Assembly: GCF_001418655.1 (NCBI RefSeq)
Contig: NZ_LIQZ01000008.1
Span: forward strand, 1-42,615
From: Streptomyces phaeochromogenes
GTDB lineage: Bacteria > Actinomycetota > Actinomycetes > Streptomycetales > Streptomycetaceae
DNA: 42,615 nucleotides
Direction of reading: 5' to 3'
Position 1 is the stretch's first letter; every line of letters starts with the position of its first letter. Below, piece after piece: positions 13,092 to 22,144 of this stretch. The notes under the pieces were generated by a model that saw only the letters and a list, made by a program, of their open reading frames with translations, was not told the DNA's origin and made no database searches. Both the position numbers and the translations under genes were made by a program.

Positions 13092-14351
13092 TCACTTTCG
13101 GCCGACGTCGACGCGCTGCCGTACGGCCGTCTCGTTGCCCGCGATCGCCTCCACCACCTCCATGAGAGCCGCCAGGCTGTGGCCGCTGATGAACGCGTCG
13201 CAGTAGGGGAGTGCGGCGGTCATTCCGGCGGTGCGTGGGGTGTAGCCGGGGGCCGCTTTGCGGGGGTTGACCCAGATGATGCGGTGGGTGAGGCGTGAGA
13301 GGCGGGCCATTTCGCGGGCGACGGCCGCCGGGTCCTCGCCCTCCCAGCCGTCGGAGAAGATGACCACGACGGCGCCGCGTGCCATGCCCCGGCGGCCGAA
13401 GCGGTTGTTGAACTCGGCCAGTGCGTGGCCGATGCGGGTGCCGCCGGACCAGTCGGAGGCGGCGGCACCCGCTCGGCGCAGTGCCGCGTCCACGCCGGAC
13501 GGGCCGGTGTGCCGCAGGACGGGGGTCAGCCGGGTGAGGCGGGTGGCGAAGACGAACGCCTCCGCCGCCGCGCCGGCCGCCGCTCGTGGGAAGAGGCGGA
13601 GGTAGGCCCGTGTGTACGGCTCCATGGAGCGGGAGATGTCGCACAGCAGCACCAGTCGTCGCCGTCGTAGGCGGTGGCGGGTGCGGGCCAGCAGTACGGC
13701 CTCGCCGCCGGTGCGCTGGCCGGTGCGCAGGGTTCGGCGCAGGTCGATGCGGCGGCCCCGACGGTCGGTCTCCTGGCGGCGGCCACGGCGCAGTGGCGCC
13801 TTCAGCGTCAACAGGGCGAGGAGTCGGTTGAGTTCGGCCAGCTCGGCGGGGTCGAGGGCGGCGAAGTCCTTGTGGGAGAGGACTTCGGCCGTACTGCCCG
13901 CCGTCGGCACCTCCTCGGTCCGCCGGTCCTCGTCCGGGGGCTGTGCACGGTCGCGGTCCGATGCCTCGCCGAAGGCGCCGCCCGGCAGGGGAGCGCGGGT
14001 GGGATCCGGGCCGAGGCCGGAGAGCGGTGGGGGCCGACCTGGTTCGGGGGCGGTGCCTGGCGCCGGCTCGGAATCGGCACCGGCTCCGCGGACTGCCACC
14101 GAGCGCGGCCCGCCCACGAAGACCGCGTCGAAGACCCTCTCGAACAGCTCGATCTGCTCGCGATCCGTCACGAACGCCAGCCGCGCCGCCCAGTACAGCG
14201 CCGTACGGTCCACCGGCGGCAGCAGCACCAGCGTCTGAAGGAACCGCACCGACCGCTCCGGAGTCACCGCCACCCCGGCTCGCCGCAGCTCCGCGCCGAG
14301 CCGGCCCGCGAACTCGGCCCGGTCGAAGAGCGGAACCGCCGTCGCCGTCAC
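13092..14351 (-). CDS. coxE: CoxE-type VWA-domain protein
   Basis: A 419-residue protein. An N-terminal helical domain (residues 1-85) and a low-complexity Pro/Glu linker (90-160) precede a von Willebrand A domain whose metal-ion-dependent adhesion motif DISRS is at 238-242, with TRIGHALAEFNNRF and VVIFSDGWEGEDP further on. CoxE works with the AAA+ protein CoxD in inserting sulfur and copper into the CO dehydrogenase active site; that role is known from Oligotropha and inferred here. The GTG start overlaps the coxD stop as GTGA. It is the last gene of the recognisable cox operon. Confidence 0.9.
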   Translation of the reverse strand: MTATAVPLFDRAEFAGRLGAELRRAGVAVTPERSVRFLQTLVLLPPVDRTALYWAARLAFVTDREQIELFERVFDAVFVGGPRSVAVRGAGADSEPAPGTAPEPGRPPPLSGLGPDPTRAPLPGGAFGEASDRDRAQPPDEDRRTEEVPTAGSTAEVLSHKDFAALDPAELAELNRLLALLTLKAPLRRGRRQETDRRGRRIDLRRTLRTGQRTGGEAVLLARTRHRLRRRRLVLLCDISRSMEPYTRAYLRLFPRAAAGAAAEAFVFATRLTRLTPVLRHTGPSGVDAALRRAGAAASDWSGGTRIGHALAEFNNRFGRRGMARGAVVVIFSDGWEGEDPAAVAREMARLSRLTHRIIWVNPRKAAPGYTPRTAGMTAALPYCDAFISGHSLAALMEVVEAIAGNETAVRQRVDVGRK

Positions 14352-15247
14352 GGCTGTCGGCCCGCGACCAGCCAGTCCAGGCCGCGCTCCCGCACCAGCT
14401 CCTGGTCCTCGCGGTACTTCAGCAGAGAGCCGAGCGTGCGCCCGGCGATCTCGGCGTCGAGACGGGGCACGCCGAGCAGGTTCAGCGCGGAGATCCAGTC
14501 GATGGTCTCGGCGACGCCCGGTGCCTTCTGCACGTCCAGGGCCCGCAGCCGCCGAACCGCCGCCGACACCGCGACCGCCAGTTCCCGCGACGTCCCGGGT
14601 ACCCGGCGGCGGACGATCTCGACGATCCGTTCCGTGTCGGGATAGTCGATCCAGTGGTAGAGGCACCGGCGTTTGAGCGCGTCATGGAGGTCACGGGTGC
14701 GGTTGGAGGTGAGCAGCACGACGGGCGGCACGGCGGCCCGGATGGTGCCGATCTCCGGGATCGTCACTGCCGCCTCGGCCAGCACTTCTAGCAGGAACGC
14801 CTCGAAGTCGTCGTCGGCGCGGTCGATCTCGTCGATGAGCAGCACGGCGGGGGCCGGGCCGGGGTGGGTGAGCGCCGCGAGCACGGGCCGCCGCAGCAGG
14901 TACTCCTCGCTGAACAGATCGGCCTCACTGAGCTGCTCGTACCGGGACTCGGCCAGGCGGATCCCGAGCAGCTGGCGCGGATAGTTCCACTCGTACAGCG
15001 CCTCGGCCGCGTCCAGGCCGTCGTAGCACTGCAGCCGGATCAGCGGGCTGCCCAGGATCGCGGCCACCGCCTTGGCCGCCTCGGTCTTGCCGACGCCCGC
15101 CTCGCCCTCCAGGAGCAGCGGCTGCGGCAGGCGCAGGGCGAGGAAGAGCGCGGTGGCCAGACCGTCGTCGGCGAGATAGCCCAGCGAGTCCAGCGCGGCG
15201 CGCAGGCTCTCCACGCCCGGCAGACAGCGCTCGACGTACTCGCTCAC
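14348..15247 (-). CDS. coxD: CoxD-type MoxR AAA+ ATPase
   Basis: A 299-residue AAA+ ATPase of the MoxR/CoxD group: Walker A GEAGVGKT at 48-55, Walker B AVLLIDEIDRA at 134-144, sensor 1 LLTSNRTRDL near 175, and the family segment YEWNYPRQLL after the Walker A. CoxD is the unfoldase-like chaperone needed to mature the Mo-Cu centre of CO dehydrogenase. It pairs with the VWA protein encoded next (4-nt overlap), as MoxR proteins usually do. The GTG start overlaps the XdhC-YHS stop as GTGA. Confidence 0.92.
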   Translation of the reverse strand: MSEYVERCLPGVESLRAALDSLGYLADDGLATALFLALRLPQPLLLEGEAGVGKTEAAKAVAAILGSPLIRLQCYDGLDAAEALYEWNYPRQLLGIRLAESRYEQLSEADLFSEEYLLRRPVLAALTHPGPAPAVLLIDEIDRADDDFEAFLLEVLAEAAVTIPEIGTIRAAVPPVVLLTSNRTRDLHDALKRRCLYHWIDYPDTERIVEIVRRRVPGTSRELAVAVSAAVRRLRALDVQKAPGVAETIDWISALNLLGVPRLDAEIAGRTLGSLLKYREDQELVRERGLDWLVAGRQP

Positions 15248-16203
15248 GAGGCGTCGGCCTTCGCGTAGCGGGCGGGGTCCGTCTCGTACGCGGCACGACA
15301 ACCGGCACAGCAGAACCAGCGGCGCTCGTCGCCGCCCTCGTCGGAGTACGGGGTGCTGTCCGTGACGGAGACCGTCATCCCGCACACGGGGTCGACGGCG
15401 GTCACCGAGCCGGTCTCCGGAGACTCCGGAGGCGCCTCCACCTCCACTTCCACGGAGCGCCCCCTCACCGCCTGAATCACCTCCGCGAGGATCGACACCG
15501 CGATCTCGCCCGGCGTGCGGGCACCGATCCACAGACCGGCAGGCGTATGGATCCGCGCGAGCTCCTCGGCATCGAGTGGCAGGGCGTCCAGCACTGCCGC
15601 TCCGCGCCTGGGGCTGGCCACCAGCCCGATGTACGGCACCCCCGCGCGCACGGCCGAGACGAGTACCGGCTCCTCGCCCCGGCCGTGGGAGGCGATCACC
15701 AGCGCCTGGCTCCCGGCCAGGTCCTCCGGCGTGATCCCGTCCGCGCCGGACGCCTCCGTGATCTCGTAACCGAGCACCGGGCCGAAGGCCGCCAACGCGC
15801 GGGCGATGGGGGACTCACCCAGGACCACCACGCGCGGTGCGGGCCGCAACGGCTCCAGGAAGATCTCCAACTCGCCGCCGGACAGGCATGGATTGGCGAC
15901 GCTCACCGCGCCCTCCTCGACGACGGGTTCCCCTGTGCCGTCCGCCGTCTCCTCCGGCGAGATCCGCAGCAACAGCGACTCCCCGCTGCGCAGTGTCCGC
16001 AGCGCCTGCACCCGTACGGTGGCCTCCGCGCAGGCGCCCCCGACGAAGCCCTCGACCCGGCCGTCGGCGAGGACCAGCGCGGTGTCGCCCGGCCGCGCGC
16101 TCGCAGGGCGACGGGCGCGAACGACGGTGGCCTTCACGAACGGCACGTGGCGGCCCGTCAGTTCGGCCATGCGTGCCTCAAGTGGGGGTGCGGTGGGGCT
16201 CAT
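15244..16203 (-). CDS. XdhC/CoxI-family maturation factor fused to a C-terminal YHS domain
   Basis: A 319-residue protein. Residues 1-120 form the XdhC_CoxI domain (FVKATVVRARRPASARPGDTALV, EGFVGGACAEATVR, NPCLSGGELEIFLEP). Residues 124-245 form the Rossmann-like XdhC C-domain (RVVVLGESPIARALA, VIASHGRGEEPVL, YIGLVASPRR). XdhC proteins bind and protect molybdenum cofactor and deliver it to molybdo-hydroxylases after sulfuration. A linker leads to an added YHS/TRASH-like metal-binding domain at 270-316: DPVCGMTVSV, then RRWFCCAGCRAAYETDPARYA, with Cys274, 298, 299 and 302. A metal-binding module on the maturation factor of a Mo-Cu enzyme could handle copper; this is inference. Start and stop both overlap neighbours by 4 nt. 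Confidence 0.88.
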   Translation of the reverse strand: MSPTAPPLEARMAELTGRHVPFVKATVVRARRPASARPGDTALVLADGRVEGFVGGACAEATVRVQALRTLRSGESLLLRISPEETADGTGEPVVEEGAVSVANPCLSGGELEIFLEPLRPAPRVVVLGESPIARALAAFGPVLGYEITEASGADGITPEDLAGSQALVIASHGRGEEPVLVSAVRAGVPYIGLVASPRRGAAVLDALPLDAEELARIHTPAGLWIGARTPGEIAVSILAEVIQAVRGRSVEVEVEAPPESPETGSVTAVDPVCGMTVSVTDSTPYSDEGGDERRWFCCAGCRAAYETDPARYAKADAS

Positions 16204-18581
16204 TGCGGTGCCTCCACCTCGCCCCGGTGCAGCGCCTGCCACACCCGGCTCGGGGTCAGCGGCATGTCGGCGTGGCGTACGCCGATCGCGTCGAGGACCG
16301 CGTTGACGACGGCCGGCGGCGAACCGACCGTCGCCGACTCGCCGATGCCCTTCGCGCCGATCGGATGGTGAGGGGAGGGAGTGACGGTGTGGTCCAGCTC
16401 CCAGGCCGGGACCTCCAGCGCGGTCGGCAGCAGATAGTCCATGAAGGACCCGGACAGACAGTTGCCGTCCTCGTCGAAGCTGATCAGCTCCATCAGCGCC
16501 ATACCGACCCCGTCGGCCAGCCCGCCGTGCACCTGCCCCTCGATGATCATCGGGTTGATACGGGTCCCGCAGTCGTCCACCGCGATGAAGCGCCGCACCT
16601 TCACCGTGCCCGTCCCGGAATCGACGTCGACCACGCAGACGTACGCGCCGAACGGGTAGGTGAGATTGGGCGGGTTGTAGACGGTCGTCGCCTCCAGATG
16701 ACCCTCCACACCGTCCGGCAGCTCCAGCGACCCGTGCGCGGCGAGCGCGATCTCCTGGATCGTCTTCGTTATCGCCGGGTCACCCGCGACCGACCAGCGG
16801 CCCTTGGTCCATTCGAGGTCGTCGGGGGAGACCTCCAGCATGGCCCCGGCGATGATCCGCGCCTTGTCGCGCACCTTCCGCGCCACCACGGCAGCAGCCG
16901 CTCCCGACACGGGAGTCGACCGGCTTCCGTACGTACCCAGCCCGAACGGCGTCTGGTCGGTGTCGCCGTGCACGACGTCGATGTCCTCGGGCGGGATGCC
17001 CAGCTCCTCGGCGACGATCTGCGCGAACGTCGTCTCGTGGCCCTGCCCCTGCGTCTGCACGCTCAGCCGGACCACCGCCTTGCCGGTCGGATGGACGCGC
17101 AGCTCGCAGCCGTCGGCCATGCCGAGGCCGAGGATGTCCATGTGCTTGCGGGGCCCGGCGCCGACCGTCTCGGTGAAGAACGACAGCCCGATGCCCATGA
17201 GTTCGCCCCGGGCCCGCTTCTCGCTCTGCTCCTTGCGCAGTTCCTCGTACCCGGCCAGGTCCAACGCTTTGCGCAGACAGGCGGGGTAGTCGCCGGAGTC
17301 GTACGTCCAGCCGGTCTTGTTCTCGTAGGGGAACTGTTCCGGCCGCAGCAGGTTGCGCATCCTCAACTCGGCCGGGTCGGCGTCGAGTTCGGCCGCCAGG
17401 CAGTCCACCATCCGCTCGATCAGATAGACCGCCTCGGTGACCCGGAACGAACAGGCGTACGCGACTCCGCCCGGTGCCTTGTTGGTGTAGACGCCGGTGA
17501 CCGAGCAGTGCGCGGCTTCGATGTCGTACGAGCCGGTGAAGATGTGGAAGAAGCCGGCTGGGTACTTGGTGGGCTGCGCGGTGGAGTTGAAGGCGCCGTG
17601 ATCGGCGAGGACCTTGACCCGTACGGCCAGGATCTTGCCGTCCCGGGTCGCGGCGATCTCGCCGGTCATGTGGTAGTCGCGGGCGAAGGAGGTGCTCATC
17701 AGGTTCTCGGAGCGGTCCTCCATCCACTTCACGGGCCGCCCGGTGACGATCGAGCCGACGACCGCGCACACGTAACCCGGGTAGATCCCGACCTTGTTGC
17801 CGAATCCGCCGCCGATGTCGGGGGAGACGACCCGGATCTTGTGCTCGGGAATCCCGGCCACCATTGCGTAGAGGGTGCGGTGGGCGTGCGGGGCCTGGGT
17901 GGTGGAGTAGAGGGTGAGCTTGCCGTCGACCGGGTCCATCGAGGCGACCGCGCCGCACGTCTCCAGCGGGGCCGGGTGGACGCGCGGATAGAGCATGGTC
18001 TGCTCGACCACGACGTCGGCCCGCGCGAACACCTCGTCGGTGGCCGCGCTGTCGCCGGCCTCCCAGTCGAAGATGTGGTTGTCCGTACGGCCTTCCAGGT
18101 CGTCGCGGATGACGGGCGCGCCGGGGCCGAGGGCATGGCGGGCGTTGACCACCGGGTCCAGCGGTTCGTACTCGACGTCGATCAACTCGATGGCGTCGCG
18201 CGCCGCGTAGTGGTCCTCGGCCACCACGAACGCGACCTCCTGCCCCTGGAAACGCACCTTGTCGGTGGCGAGTACGGCCTGCGTGTCCATCGAGAGCGTC
18301 GGCATCCAGGCGAGTCCCAGGCCCGCGAGCGTCTCACCGGTGATCACCGCCTTGACCTTGGGGTGCGCCTCGGCGGCCGAGGTGTCGATGGAGACGATGC
18401 GCGCGTGCGCGAACGGACTGCGCAGCACAGCGCCGTGCAGCATGCCCGGCAGGTGGATGTCGTCGACGTAGCGGCCCTTGCCGCGTACGAAGCGGGGGTC
18501 CTCCTTGCGCTTCATCCGGCCGAAGCCGATGGGCCGTTCGTCCGGCGCGGGGGCGACTGGAGGTTCGTCGACGGCGGTCAT
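16200..18581 (-). CDS. coxL: Aerobic carbon monoxide dehydrogenase, large (molybdenum) subunit, form I
   Basis: A 793-residue molybdopterin-binding subunit. The active-site loop reads AYACSFR at residues 374-380, with Cys377 as the copper-ligating cysteine; AYxCSFR is the hallmark of true form I CO dehydrogenase and separates it from the AYRGAGR loop of form II and from xanthine dehydrogenases. Other expected blocks are SPDIGGGFGNK (253-263), QTQGQGHETTFAQI, and GAKGIGESATVG near the C-terminus, which carries the catalytic glutamate. The enzyme oxidises CO to CO2 and passes electrons to the respiratory chain, allowing atmospheric CO scavenging. ATG overlaps the coxS stop as ATGA; its stop overlaps the XdhC-YHS start. 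Confidence 0.97.
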   Translation of the reverse strand: MTAVDEPPVAPAPDERPIGFGRMKRKEDPRFVRGKGRYVDDIHLPGMLHGAVLRSPFAHARIVSIDTSAAEAHPKVKAVITGETLAGLGLAWMPTLSMDTQAVLATDKVRFQGQEVAFVVAEDHYAARDAIELIDVEYEPLDPVVNARHALGPGAPVIRDDLEGRTDNHIFDWEAGDSAATDEVFARADVVVEQTMLYPRVHPAPLETCGAVASMDPVDGKLTLYSTTQAPHAHRTLYAMVAGIPEHKIRVVSPDIGGGFGNKVGIYPGYVCAVVGSIVTGRPVKWMEDRSENLMSTSFARDYHMTGEIAATRDGKILAVRVKVLADHGAFNSTAQPTKYPAGFFHIFTGSYDIEAAHCSVTGVYTNKAPGGVAYACSFRVTEAVYLIERMVDCLAAELDADPAELRMRNLLRPEQFPYENKTGWTYDSGDYPACLRKALDLAGYEELRKEQSEKRARGELMGIGLSFFTETVGAGPRKHMDILGLGMADGCELRVHPTGKAVVRLSVQTQGQGHETTFAQIVAEELGIPPEDIDVVHGDTDQTPFGLGTYGSRSTPVSGAAAAVVARKVRDKARIIAGAMLEVSPDDLEWTKGRWSVAGDPAITKTIQEIALAAHGSLELPDGVEGHLEATTVYNPPNLTYPFGAYVCVVDVDSGTGTVKVRRFIAVDDCGTRINPMIIEGQVHGGLADGVGMALMELISFDEDGNCLSGSFMDYLLPTALEVPAWELDHTVTPSPHHPIGAKGIGESATVGSPPAVVNAVLDAIGVRHADMPLTPSRVWQALHRGEVEAPQ

Positions 18582-19078
18582 GTCTGGCTCCCCGCGGTCT
18601 CCGTGACTCCGTCGGCCTCGGCCCGGTTCCTCGCCGCCCACTGGATGGACTTGACGATGTTCAGATAGCCGGTGCACCGGCACAGCTGGCCGGAGATGGC
18701 CTCGCGGATCTCCTGCTCGGACGGATCCGGGTTGCGGTCCAGGAGCGCCCGGCCGGTGAGCATCATCCCCGGGGTGCAGAACCCGCACTGCAGACCGTGC
18801 TGCTCGATGAACCCCTGCTGAACGGGGTCGAGTTGGTCTCCGTCCGCCAGATCCTCGACCGTACGGATCTCGTGACCGGCCGCCATGACCGCCAGGACCG
18901 TACAGCTCTTGACGGGTTCCCCGTCCATCAGCACAACGCACGTTCCGCAGTTGCTCGTGTCGCAGCCCCAGTGGGTGCCGGTCAGTTCCAGGTCGTCGCG
19001 CAGGAAGCGCACGAGCAGATGCCGGGGCTCGACCTCCCGGGTGTGGTCGTCGCCGTTGACGTTGACGGTGATCCGCAT
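18578..19078 (-). CDS. coxS: Aerobic carbon monoxide dehydrogenase, small (iron-sulfur) subunit
   Basis: A 166-residue protein with two [2Fe-2S] clusters. The plant-ferredoxin-type cluster uses Cys39, 44, 47 and 59 (WGCDTSNCGTC ... KSC). The helical C-terminal domain uses Cys98, 101, 133 and 135 (QCGFCTPGM ... QLCRCTGY). It conducts electrons from the CoxL molybdenum site to FAD in CoxM. The ATG is preceded by GGGAGGCG, 5 nt after the coxM stop. Length and motifs are canonical. Confidence 0.97.
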   Translation of the reverse strand: MRITVNVNGDDHTREVEPRHLLVRFLRDDLELTGTHWGCDTSNCGTCVVLMDGEPVKSCTVLAVMAAGHEIRTVEDLADGDQLDPVQQGFIEQHGLQCGFCTPGMMLTGRALLDRNPDPSEQEIREAISGQLCRCTGYLNIVKSIQWAARNRAEADGVTETAGSQT

Positions 19079-19083
19079 GCGCC

Positions 19084-19977
19084 TCACGCCTCCCTTGCCG
19101 TGGACCCGATGGGCCGCCCGGCCCGGGCGACCGCCCGCCGCAGTGCCCGCCGGGTGAGTTCGCCGGCCAGATGCCGCTTGTACTCGGCGCTGCCCCGCCC
19201 GTCGGTGACCGGTGAGCAGCTGTCCGACGCCACCCGGCCCGCCTCCTCGTACAGGGCCTCGGACGGTTCGCTGCCGTTCAGCAGCGTCTGGACCGCGTGC
19301 AGGTTCAGCGCCCCGGCGCCGACCGCCGCCAGACCCACGCCCGCGTCGGCGATCCGCCCCTCGCGCAGCGTCAGGGCGACCCCGGCCGCGGCGACGGCCC
19401 AGTCCCCGGCCTTGCGCTCGACCTTCTCGTACGCGCTGCCCGCACCCGGCAGGACCGGCAGCCGCACCTCGGTCAGCATCTCGCCGACGCCCACGGCCGT
19501 TTCGTACGGGCCCTGGTGGAAGTCGGCCATGGAGACGATCCGTTCGCCGCCCGCCCCGCGGATGACGGCATGGGCGTGCAGCGCGCCGCACACCGCCGAG
19601 AGGTCCTCGGAAGGGTCGGCCTGGCAGAGGGAGCCGCCGATCGTGCCGCGGTTGCGGACCGGCGGGTCGGCGATCACCTTCTCCGCGTCGTGGACGATGG
19701 GAAAGTACCGGCCGACCAGCTCCGACTCCAGCAGTGTGCGGTGCCGGGTGAGGGCGCCGACGCGCAGTTCGTCGCCGACCAGGACGATGTGGTCGAGCTC
19801 GTGCAGGTCGTTGATGTCGACGAGGACCTCGGGGGCGGCCAGGCGCAGCTTCATCATCGGCAGCAGACTGTGTCCGCCGGCCACGACCCGGGCCTCCTCG
19901 CCGTAGCGCCGCAGCAGTTCCAGCGCCTCGTCCACGCTCTCGGCGCGCTGGTAGTCGAACGAAGCGGGTACCTGCAC
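19084..19977 (-). CDS. coxM: Aerobic carbon monoxide dehydrogenase, medium (FAD) subunit
   Basis: A 297-residue FAD-binding PCMH-type subunit. Both FAD motifs of the CO dehydrogenase medium subunit are present: AGGHSLLP at 33-40 and TIGGS at 112-116. The C-terminal domain (EKVERKAGDWAVAAAGVAL, ADAGVGLAAVGAGALN) is standard. FAD passes electrons on to the quinone pool. The GTG at 19977 gives the canonical VQVPASFDYQRAESVDEAL opening and follows a GGGAGGGAG ribosome site. It is first in the operon; a candidate promoter (20087-20115) gives a leader of about 100 nt. A longer in-frame reading to 20196 would cross the promoter and is rejected. Confidence 0.96.
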   Translation of the reverse strand: MQVPASFDYQRAESVDEALELLRRYGEEARVVAGGHSLLPMMKLRLAAPEVLVDINDLHELDHIVLVGDELRVGALTRHRTLLESELVGRYFPIVHDAEKVIADPPVRNRGTIGGSLCQADPSEDLSAVCGALHAHAVIRGAGGERIVSMADFHQGPYETAVGVGEMLTEVRLPVLPGAGSAYEKVERKAGDWAVAAAGVALTLREGRIADAGVGLAAVGAGALNLHAVQTLLNGSEPSEALYEEAGRVASDSCSPVTDGRGSAEYKRHLAGELTRRALRRAVARAGRPIGSTAREA

Positions 19978-20086: not shown

Positions 20087-20115
20087 ACAATTGCGCGAAG
20101 GGATGGGGCGGTCAA
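20087..20115 (-). promoter_or_regulatory. Candidate coxM operon promoter
   Basis: On the minus strand, TTGACC (20110-20115) and AATTGT (20087-20092) are separated by exactly 17 nt. The -35 abuts and shares two bases with the 28-nt box at 20114-20141, the position expected for an activator contacting RNA polymerase. Predicted transcript start is near 20080. Confidence 0.5.
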
Positions 20116-20141
20116 CGGCGACTCAAGCGAATGCTTAAGAG
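20114..20141. promoter_or_regulatory. Candidate LysR-binding box 1 (coxM/lysR divergent region)
   Basis: A 28-nt element beginning AACGGCGACT and ending TTAAGAG on the plus strand. Its core is an imperfect palindrome, CTCAAGC-GAAT-GCTTAAG (20122-20139), one mismatch in seven base pairs. A second copy at 21199-21226 upstream of coxG matches at 23 of 28 positions. It lies between the divergent coxM and LysR genes. Confidence 0.65.
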
Positions 20142-20185
20142 ACCTGGGTACCGGAGGGGGTCCTACCGGTCGAACAGCCGTTGTA

Positions 20186-21154
20186 ATGGCGGACATGACG
20201 CTGACTCAGCTCCGCGCTTTCGTCACGGTGGCCCGTCTGGGCTCGGTCAAGGCCGCCGCGGGGTCGCTCGGCGTCACCGAGGCCGCGGTCTCCGGCGCGG
20301 TCGCCGCGCTCCGCCGTGAACTCGGTGACCTTCTTTTCATCCGGGCCGCCGGCGGGATCAGTCTCACCCCGGGCGGCAGACGCCTCGCCGCAGGGGCCGC
20401 CGAGATCGTCGGCCTCGCCGAGGAGACCCGCCACCGGGTCCGCCAGGCCGGCTCGGGCACCGCCCAACTGCGGGTGGCGTCCACCGAAGCCGGCGCCGAA
20501 CAGGTCCTCCCCGCCCTGCTCGCGGCCTTCGGGCGCCGCCAGCCCGACCTGGACGTCGACACCCTCGCCGTGCCGGTGGCGGTCTTCGGCGACCTGCTCC
20601 GTGACCGCCGAGCCGATGTCACGATCGGTCCTGCGCCCCGCCCCGAACCGGGTATCGAGTCGATCCCCTTCCTGCGCTTCCAACTGGTCGTCGTCGCGGC
20701 CCCGGACCACCCGCTCAGACACCGGAAGCGGCTGGCACCCACCCAACTGGCCCACGAGCCATGGATGTTGGGCCCGGCCGGACTGGACCCGGACACCCTC
20801 TCCGGCGCCTTTCTCGCCCATGCCGGAGTCGAAGCCGCCAAGGCCAAGGCGTTCCCCAGCGTCACGGCCTCTCTCAACGCGGTGGCAGGCGGGGCCGGGC
20901 TGTCCATAGCCTTCCTCCACGTCGTACGCGACGAGCTGCGCCGCGGGTCACTGGCCGTGCTCGACGTCTCCGGCGCCCGGCTCGGCGGCATGCTGTACGC
21001 GAGCGCGCTCAACGGGGAACGGCGCTCGACGACCGCCGCCGCGCTGTGCCGTTTCGTCACGACACCGGCTGCGACACAGGCGGTGCTGACCCGGTCCAAG
21101 GGCGTTCCGATGAACGAGTTCCGACCACCGGTCCACGTCACGATCTGGAGCTGA
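20186..21154 (+). CDS. LysR-family transcriptional regulator of the cox locus
   Basis: A 322-residue regulator. The N-terminal helix-turn-helix is typical LysR (LTQLRAFVTVARLGSVKAAAGSLGVTEAAVSGAVAALRRELGDLLF, about residues 6-50), followed by a periplasmic-binding-like effector domain (LRVASTEAGAEQVLPALLAAF, ADVTIGP, VVAAPDHPL). It is divergent from coxM and just upstream of coxG. A LysR protein (CutR) activates CO dehydrogenase genes in mycobacteria, so this is the obvious regulator of the locus. The effector may be CO-linked but is unknown. Start at ATG 20186; ATG 20195 (MTLTQLRAF) is equally plausible, and neither has a good ribosome site. The C-terminal 30 residues are unconserved-looking. 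Confidence 0.93.
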   Translation: MADMTLTQLRAFVTVARLGSVKAAAGSLGVTEAAVSGAVAALRRELGDLLFIRAAGGISLTPGGRRLAAGAAEIVGLAEETRHRVRQAGSGTAQLRVASTEAGAEQVLPALLAAFGRRQPDLDVDTLAVPVAVFGDLLRDRRADVTIGPAPRPEPGIESIPFLRFQLVVVAAPDHPLRHRKRLAPTQLAHEPWMLGPAGLDPDTLSGAFLAHAGVEAAKAKAFPSVTASLNAVAGGAGLSIAFLHVVRDELRRGSLAVLDVSGARLGGMLYASALNGERRSTTAAALCRFVTTPAATQAVLTRSKGVPMNEFRPPVHVTIWS

Positions 21155-21198
21155 CTGGCCTCGGGGAGCCGGCGGATCACGGGTTCCGGCGTCCTGGG

Positions 21199-21226
21199 AA
21201 CGGCGACTTAAGCAAACCCTGAAGAG
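21199..21226. promoter_or_regulatory. Candidate LysR-binding box 2 (upstream of coxG)
   Basis: The second copy of the 28-nt element, beginning AACGGCGACT and ending TGAAGAG, 23/28 identical to 20114-20141. The inverted-repeat core is CTTAAGC-AAAC-CCTGAAG. It ends 4 nt before the coxG -35 hexamer. Both copies lie in non-coding DNA, so coding constraint cannot explain the match. Confidence 0.65.
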
Positions 21227-21230
21227 CTCA

Positions 21231-21259
21231 TTGACGGTCCGGCCGCCCACGCCCATCGT
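21231..21259 (+). promoter_or_regulatory. Candidate coxG promoter
   Basis: TTGACG (21231-21236), a 17-nt spacer, and CATCGT (21254-21259). The predicted transcript start falls at about 21266-21269, coinciding with the coxG ATG, so the message is probably leaderless. No Shine-Dalgarno is present. Confidence 0.5.
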
Positions 21260-21268
21260 GTGTCCGTC

Positions 21269-22144
21269 ATGGACTTCACCAACGAGTTCCGAGTGAACCT
21301 GCCGCCCGACCAGGCCTGGTCCCTGCTGACCGACGTGGAGCGGATCGCCCCCTGTATGCCCGGCGCCCAGCTCACCGGCGTGGACGGCGACACCTACAAC
21401 GGCGTCGTCAAGGTGAAGGTCGGCCCCATGACCGTCCAGTACAAGGGCGTCGTCTCCTTCGAGGAGAAGGACGACGAAGCGCGTACGGCGGTACTCCACG
21501 CGCGCGGCCGTGACACCCGGGGCCAGGGAAACGCCGACGCCCGCGTCACCGCCCGGCTCGTCCCGGACGGCGACGGGACGCGGGTGACGGTGGACACCCA
21601 CCTCACCATCACCGGCAGGATCGCGCAGTTCGGCCGAGGTGTGATCGAGGAGGTCAGCGGGAAGCTCCTTGCCCAGTTCGTCGACAACCTGGAGGGGCAA
21701 CTCGCGACGGAGAAGGAGCAGGCGCAGGAATCGGTCGCACCGATGCCAGAGGCCGGGGTGACGGCCGTTGCTGGAGCTGGAGCTGGAGCTGGAGCCGAGC
21801 CCGAGGCCGGCGCCCGGATCGCATCGAGTGCCACGCCGGAACCCGCTTCCGCCGGAGGCGCCACCGTGGACAACGCCCCTGCCGCCGAAGCCCCGAGGAA
21901 GGCCGCTCCCAGCGCTCCAACCTCTTCAACCGCTCCAACTTCTCCAGCCGCTCCGGCCACCCCCGCCTCGAACGGCGTCCGCCCCGCGGAAGCGCCCGCC
22001 GTTTCCCGTACGCAGGCCCCGGCCGAACCCGAACCTCTGGACCTTATGAGCGTCGCACGCGGTGCCGTACTCAAACGCGCTCTTCCGGCGGCGATCGTCC
22101 TCGCCGTGGTCGTGGTCGTTCTTGTCGTCTGGCTCACGCGATGA
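21269..22144 (+). CDS. coxG: CoxG-like SRPBCC membrane-anchored protein
   Basis: A 291-residue protein. Residues 1-150 are the CoxG subfamily of the SRPBCC/START fold (FRVNLPPDQAWSLLTDVERIAPCMPGAQL, VGPMTVQYKGVVSFEEKD, NLEGQL). A 115-residue Ala/Pro/Glu-rich linker follows, then a C-terminal membrane span (about 272-289) ending in a single Arg. CoxG recruits CO dehydrogenase to the membrane and is reported to bind quinone to deliver electrons to the respiratory chain; the C-terminal anchor fits. ATG 21269 is preferred over GTG 21260 because it gives the usual MDFTNEF start and fits the mapped promoter. It is separated from the other cox genes by the LysR gene but shares the 28-nt box. Confidence 0.93.
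   Translation: MDFTNEFRVNLPPDQAWSLLTDVERIAPCMPGAQLTGVDGDTYNGVVKVKVGPMTVQYKGVVSFEEKDDEARTAVLHARGRDTRGQGNADARVTARLVPDGDGTRVTVDTHLTITGRIAQFGRGVIEEVSGKLLAQFVDNLEGQLATEKEQAQESVAPMPEAGVTAVAGAGAGAGAEPEAGARIASSATPEPASAGGATVDNAPAAEAPRKAAPSAPTSSTAPTSPAAPATPASNGVRPAEAPAVSRTQAPAEPEPLDLMSVARGAVLKRALPAAIVLAVVVVVLVVWLTR
21771..21794 (+). repeat. Four tandem CTGGAG hexamers inside coxG
   Basis: Four perfect 6-bp units, in frame, encoding an Ala-Gly run in the flexible linker of CoxG. Such a tract can change length by strand slippage in whole-codon steps, altering linker length without frameshift. Confidence 0.85.

Follow-up and report, generated by a model that had tools for sequence, protein, structure and literature searches.

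Genes and palindromic boxes of the cox locus

The stretch analysed here, called the window, comprises 42,615 nucleotides of contig NZ_LIQZ01000008.1 from Streptomyces phaeochromogenes and carries a CO dehydrogenase locus. The unit coxM-S-L-I-D-E lies on the minus strand and is headed by coxM (19084..19977), which starts with GTG. It is followed by coxS (18578..19078, start placed by similarity), with Fer2 and Fer2_2 domains, and by coxL (16200..18572), whose product scores 1387 bits against TIGR02416 at a cut-off of 991 and is thus a form I CO dehydrogenase large subunit. Frames for coxI (XdhC family), coxD (AAA+) and coxE (VWA) were assigned by Pfam within 13092..16242, with approximate starts. 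On the plus strand lie lysR (20186..21154, for which the in-frame ATG at 20195 may be the start) and coxG (21269..22144; Pfam COXG PF06240, E 7.8e-23), the latter a unit placed apart from coxM-S-L-I-D-E. Both HTH_1 and LysR_substrate are above cut-off in the lysR product, which is therefore a LysR-type regulator. The first-pass annotation had placed two 28-nt boxes on either side of a LysR gene within a CO dehydrogenase locus, and these domain and family assignments bear out that description.

Box 1 is located between coxM and the divergent lysR, and box 2 between lysR and coxG; both are non-coding given the starts of coxM at 19977, lysR at 20186 and coxG at 21269. The two 28-nt stretches, 20114-20141 and 21199-21226, are identical at 23 of 28 positions, as claimed earlier, and the runner-up 28-mer matches anywhere in the window reach only 16-17 of 28. 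Shuffling the two intergenic stretches 200 times by mononucleotides gave best common 28-mers with a mean of 17.2 and a maximum of 21 matches. Each box holds a palindrome with one mismatch to TTAAG-n6-CTTAA, the form of the CutR operator discussed below. The 16-nt core is TTAAGCATTCGCTTGA in box 1 (20123..20138, minus strand, read towards coxM) and TTAAGCAAACCCTGAA in box 2 (21208..21223, plus strand).

Each core is followed by a predicted promoter. On the coxM side the -35 element TTGACC (20110..20115, minus strand) and a weak -10 element AATTGT (20087..20092), the latter partly conserved in nine loci, are separated by a 17-nt spacer. On the coxG side TTGACG (21231..21236, plus strand) is followed, again after 17 nt, by a weak CATCGT (21254..21259) ending 9 nt before the ATG. 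Read in the promoter direction, the two arrangements are TTAAGCATTCGCTTGA-gtcgccg-TTGACC and TTAAGCAAACCCTGAA-gagctca-TTGACG, so that the gap from core to TTGAC is exactly 7 nt at both. Of the earlier description, the two -35/-10 pairs with 17-nt spacers and the inverted-repeat core stand, but the -10 elements are weak, the constant unit is a core at 7 nt from the -35 element, and the 28-nt extent is too long for a conserved unit of 16 nt. The match had been drawn with both boxes on the plus strand and is real in that alignment, but the two promoters are oppositely oriented, so the flank AACGGCGA common to both 28-nt boxes lies on the -35 side at box 1 and on the far side at box 2 and is not equivalent. 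Among nine coxM and eight coxG upstream regions from close relatives, including the window, the AACGGCGA flank of box 2 changes from orthologue to orthologue while core and -35 element hold. The 28-nt stretch was rejected as the conserved unit on this ground.

The genome search for further copies that had been proposed with the boxes was run on the 10.9-Mb assembly (702 contigs). A degenerate 25-nt box pattern at up to three mismatches found exclusively boxes 1 and 2. The core TTAAG-n6-CTTAA at up to one mismatch occurs at five places, boxes 1 and 2 included, compared with 34 for its reversed control. A chance origin of the boxes was rejected on these genome-wide counts. The three other cores, on contigs C249, C289 and C304, were viewed with their surroundings as ORF lists; none remains within one mismatch once TTGAC at 7 nt is required, C289 then having two mismatches and C304 three.

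Relation of the LysR protein to CutR

The best solved relative of the window LysR is CutR (PDB 9VVT and 9VVU; E 9e-54, residues 4-322 aligned to 1-320), and the same search of the PDB returned nothing else below 1e-20. In Mycobacterium sp. JC1, CutR is described as a LysR-type protein that activates the CO dehydrogenase genes, and its operator TTAAG-n6-CTTAA precedes cutB (IR1) and cutR (IR2); CutR bound IR1 and IR2 in gel shifts, and they were needed for expression of a cutB reporter (PMC12609908). The DNA-contacting Arg-40 of CutR, reported to be required for IR1 binding (PMC12609908), corresponds to Arg-43 of the window protein and is kept in all 49 rows of our LysR alignment. The palindrome itself is therefore already known as the JC1 operator. 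As far as the JC1 system is described (PMC12609908; 9VVT, 9VVU), the window shares with it a LysR-type regulator with Arg-40, a form I CO dehydrogenase and a single TTAAG-n6-CTTAA palindrome (T-n12-A) per promoter near the -35 element of the medium-subunit gene. The tetrameric LysR systems BenM and CbnR likewise have the LysR domains and a divergent regulator gene, but their sites are given as T-n11-A (PMC12609908), whereas the window cores are T-n12-A and neither promoter has a paired second palindrome.

Three features set the window apart from JC1. Its LysR belongs to a separate clade, the putative CutR ligand-site residues Ser-97, Tyr-164, Glu-204 and Trp-269 are replaced by Thr, Phe, Leu and Leu, and a second putative operator is found at a separate coxG. 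A tree was built from 49 LysR rows; it is midpoint-rooted, and the program flagged long branches in it. In this tree the 14 LysR proteins from loci with the gene order of the window (layout A; the window and 13 others) form one clade with support of 100/98. JC1 CutR clusters with eight loci at 100/100, and a 100/100 branch separates the layout-A clade from the JC1 CutR rows. The position of Trp-269 is occupied by Leu in all 14 layout-A rows and by Trp in the remaining 35 of 35. The other three ligand-site positions vary outside layout A as well (Thr at position 97 in 8 of 35 rows, Glu-204 widely), leaving W269L as the sole ligand-site change exclusive to the layout-A clade.

The window LysR thus lies outside CutR sensu stricto both by its ligand-site residues and by its placement outside the JC1 CutR clade. 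Because of this separate clade and the changed putative ligand-site residues, we classify it, as far as sequence comparison goes, as a CutR-family regulator and not as CutR. The altered residues suggest that the layout-A LysR proteins bind another ligand, or none, and the window LysR and mycobacterial CutR may have different inducers. What appears to be new is that the CutR operator code would extend to Streptomyces via a deep sister clade of CutR, that coxG would have its own putative operator, and that the layout-A clade has lost a putative-pocket tryptophan kept by 35 of 35 other relatives.

Conservation and distribution of the box

A class-wide search for the LysR at E ≤ 1e-35 found it in 30 of 394 genomes. 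Together with named Streptomycetaceae loci, the loci so obtained supplied 46 distinct coxM upstream regions of 350 nt (row L015 was left out, its contig being identical to that of L027). The core is present at up to two mismatches in 41 of the 46, so the comparison of cox loci put forward in the first-pass annotation as the refuting check found the box conserved. The best core has no mismatch in 4, one in 23, two in 14, three in 3 and four in 2 upstream regions; the five poorest, with three to four mismatches, are L073, L086, L090, L095 and L097. In 39 of the 46, a core with three mismatches or fewer has TTGAC 7 nt away. Elsewhere in the same loci, among 1,656,766 strand positions that exclude 450 nt around the coxM and coxG starts, cores number 0 at up to one mismatch and 22 at up to two.

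Control loci were chosen by a coxL of at least 70% identity in genomes without the LysR. A core at up to two mismatches precedes coxM in 42 of 47 loci with the LysR compared with 1 of 21 cox loci lacking it (Fisher 1e-11). Two loci lacking a coxM start in the first fetch (L019 and L021) were left out; their replacements were L153, which entered the 47-locus comparison, and L230, which entered no count. Twenty of the controls come from genomes in which no LysR was found, and one, L152, was retained despite the LysR at another cox locus of its genome (G255). Excluded were L129 (contig beginning inside coxM), L151 (a LysR gene cut off by the end of the contig), L150 (lacking coxM, with the LysR elsewhere in its genome) and genomes G203 and G278 (coxL fragments). 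Control upstream regions were 350 nt long, except for L140 (282 nt) and L131 (116 nt). In tblastn searches of the fetched control loci at 1e-4 with seven LysR queries, no LysR was detected besides the cut gene in L151. When corrected for descent, the comparison is reduced to four independent contrasts, a number too small for a formal test, in which the box changed the same way as the LysR in 2.4 and the opposite way in 0.1 on average.

The palindrome could in principle be read by another protein accompanying form I cox loci rather than by the window LysR. Such a reading would account for a box in a control locus where no LysR was found (L131) and for looser palindromes of the same spacing with no LysR nearby in L134, L136 and L137, but the motif is the same as the CutR operator, the box marks 42 of the 47 cox loci that have the LysR but a single one of the 21 that lack it, and box and LysR occur in the same Streptomyces genomes (see below). 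We regard it as highly improbable, and the CutR-family LysR remains the favoured reader of the box.

The box in L131 (positions 30-45, genome G220) is ATAAGCGTTCGCTTAT, 7 nt before TTGACC. Its short contig begins 29 nt before the box, and the genome is 80% complete and yielded no CutR-family LysR in the search; the LysR may be unassembled. The palindromes in L134, L136 and L137 (three mismatches, e.g. TCGAGCAAATGCTTGA) stand 7 nt before TTGTCC upstream of coxM, with no LysR beside the cox locus, and perhaps represent the same geometry used by another regulator. A one-mismatch core distant from coxM in a further cox locus without the LysR (L147:13774-13789) is probably due to chance.

Among 199 Streptomyces genomes, the CutR-family LysR is found in 10 at E ≤ 1e-50. 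The box followed at 7 nt by TTGAC (box-N7-TTGAC), at up to one mismatch, occurs in the identical 10 genomes, at 15 sites that all lie in a cox locus; it is absent from the other 189 genomes and has no extra sites in the ten. The reversed control matched at 11 sites spread over 10 genomes, of which one belongs to the LysR ten. The probability of identical genome sets by chance is 5e-17 under independence of the genomes, an assumption that does not hold. Loci from most of the ten genomes had gone into designing the pattern, and the limit of one mismatch was set after a run at two. Only three observations are independent of this design: the other 189 genomes lack the pattern, the ten have no sites beyond those counted, and in genome G022 the pattern located the box before coxM was recognised beside it. 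The threshold of two mismatches was discarded as too loose, with matches in 105 of 199 Streptomyces and 125 of 394 genomes of the class. One such two-mismatch match, TGAAATGATGTCTTAACAAAGTATTGAC (e.g. G000:C135:2424-2451), is nearly unchanged in many of the 199 genomes and is presumably a conserved site with another function.

Box 1 might also serve mainly for autoregulation of lysR, its nearness to coxM being a by-product of the divergent layout. Its core ends 47 nt before lysR, autoregulation is common among LysR genes, and JC1 is reported to have IR2 before cutR (PMC12609908). However, in the 18 loci where lysR is not divergent from coxM, a core at up to two mismatches precedes coxM in 16, whereas the best core before lysR has four to five mismatches in all 18. 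In S. apricus (L026), the box remains at coxM with lysR about 700 nt away. At box 1 of the window, the conserved TTGAC stands at 7 nt on the coxM side and is absent from that place towards lysR, and autoregulation leaves box 2 unexplained. Autoregulation as the main role was rejected because loci with lysR elsewhere lack a good core before it, and we consider it improbable. From these rearranged loci, the box stays with coxM and coxG and not with lysR.

At coxG, the box is present in 9 of the 14 layout-A loci and missing in L024 and L028-L031; in an Actinacidiphila locus (L032), a box of its own precedes a coxG that is some 2 kb away from lysR. Upstream of coxG in 24 loci of other layouts, no core has fewer than four mismatches. 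A gain of the coxG box inside Streptomycetaceae followed by one loss would fit the LysR tree. A second Streptomyces layout, coxM-S-L-I-D-G-E with a convergent lysR (L016-L018 and L020), has the same box, 7-nt spacing and CutR-family LysR, but its coxG lies inside the operon without a box, and its lysR, at the far end, keeps Trp-269. One genome (G002, L020:1228-1312) carries a back-to-back pair of perfect boxes, both followed by TTGAC after 7 nt; one of them is directed towards coxM and the other towards a divergent XdhC-family gene, possibly a third target unit.

Predicted joint control of the CO dehydrogenase operon and coxG

The first-pass annotation had read the boxes as a binding site through which one LysR protein serves two cox transcripts, and the CutR motif, the occurrence in the same 10 of 199 genomes and the movement of the box with coxM and coxG support such a shared site. 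We consider it very probable that the CutR-family LysR binds cores 1 and 2 before the predicted promoters and co-activates coxM-S-L-I-D-E and coxG. Binding is deduced from the operator reported for CutR and from the conservation of Arg-40; activation from the position of the core about 51 nt upstream, the weak -10 elements and the activator role of JC1 CutR. One LysR dimer would occupy the single palindrome at each promoter, centred about 51 nt upstream of a transcription start assumed to lie 7 nt after the -10 element. Bound LysR would assist RNA polymerase at promoters whose -35 element is good but whose -10 element is poor, expression of the enzyme operon and of coxG would increase in parallel, and a signal linked to CO use would presumably gate the action of LysR.

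Some LysR proteins act as repressors, and the putative ligand-site residues are unlike those of CutR, so the response of the window protein may differ; it could bind both boxes and repress the cox units until a signal comes. Yet each core lies upstream of the -35 element at a fixed distance without overlapping the hexamer, the -10 elements are weak, and JC1 CutR is described as activating at the same motif (PMC12609908). Repression thus seems unlikely to us, and activation of both units is retained as the preferred reading.

Much atmospheric CO is removed by aerobic CO-burning bacteria. CoxG handles quinone, a point on which no conclusion here relies. Joint control of coxG and the enzyme is sensible because loss of coxG in Oligotropha is reported to leave a regular CO dehydrogenase but to slow growth on CO (PMC4240915). 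The arrangement suggests joint production of CoxG and the enzyme even in loci whose coxG stands apart. Our literature searches, judged from their listings, turned up no paper on cox gene control in Streptomyces. The present analysis offers a named regulator, two exact operator candidates and a pattern that picks the LysR's own 10 of 199 Streptomyces genomes. With two clades, one operator and differing pockets, what CutR-type proteins sense becomes testable.

A broader proposal is made tentatively, as one that could well fail. The Streptomycetaceae sister clade would have preserved both operator code and DNA contact while remodelling its effector pocket, so that CO oxidation in these soil bacteria answers a different signal or none, and each cox-related unit that comes to be transcribed on its own (coxG; the XdhC-family gene of G002) would acquire its own box-N7-TTGAC promoter.

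The predicted -10 element of coxG ends 9 nt from the ATG, and the coxG ATG follows the core by 45 nt in all but one of the nine distinct loci that have box 2, the exception being L032 with 93 nt; the coxG mRNA is therefore likely to be nearly leaderless. Window positions 21254-21269 hold no clear ribosome-binding site before coxG. In S. apricus, two overlapping cores precede coxG (L026:10989-11016), as if a half-site had been duplicated, and the distance to the ATG was measured there from the second of the two.
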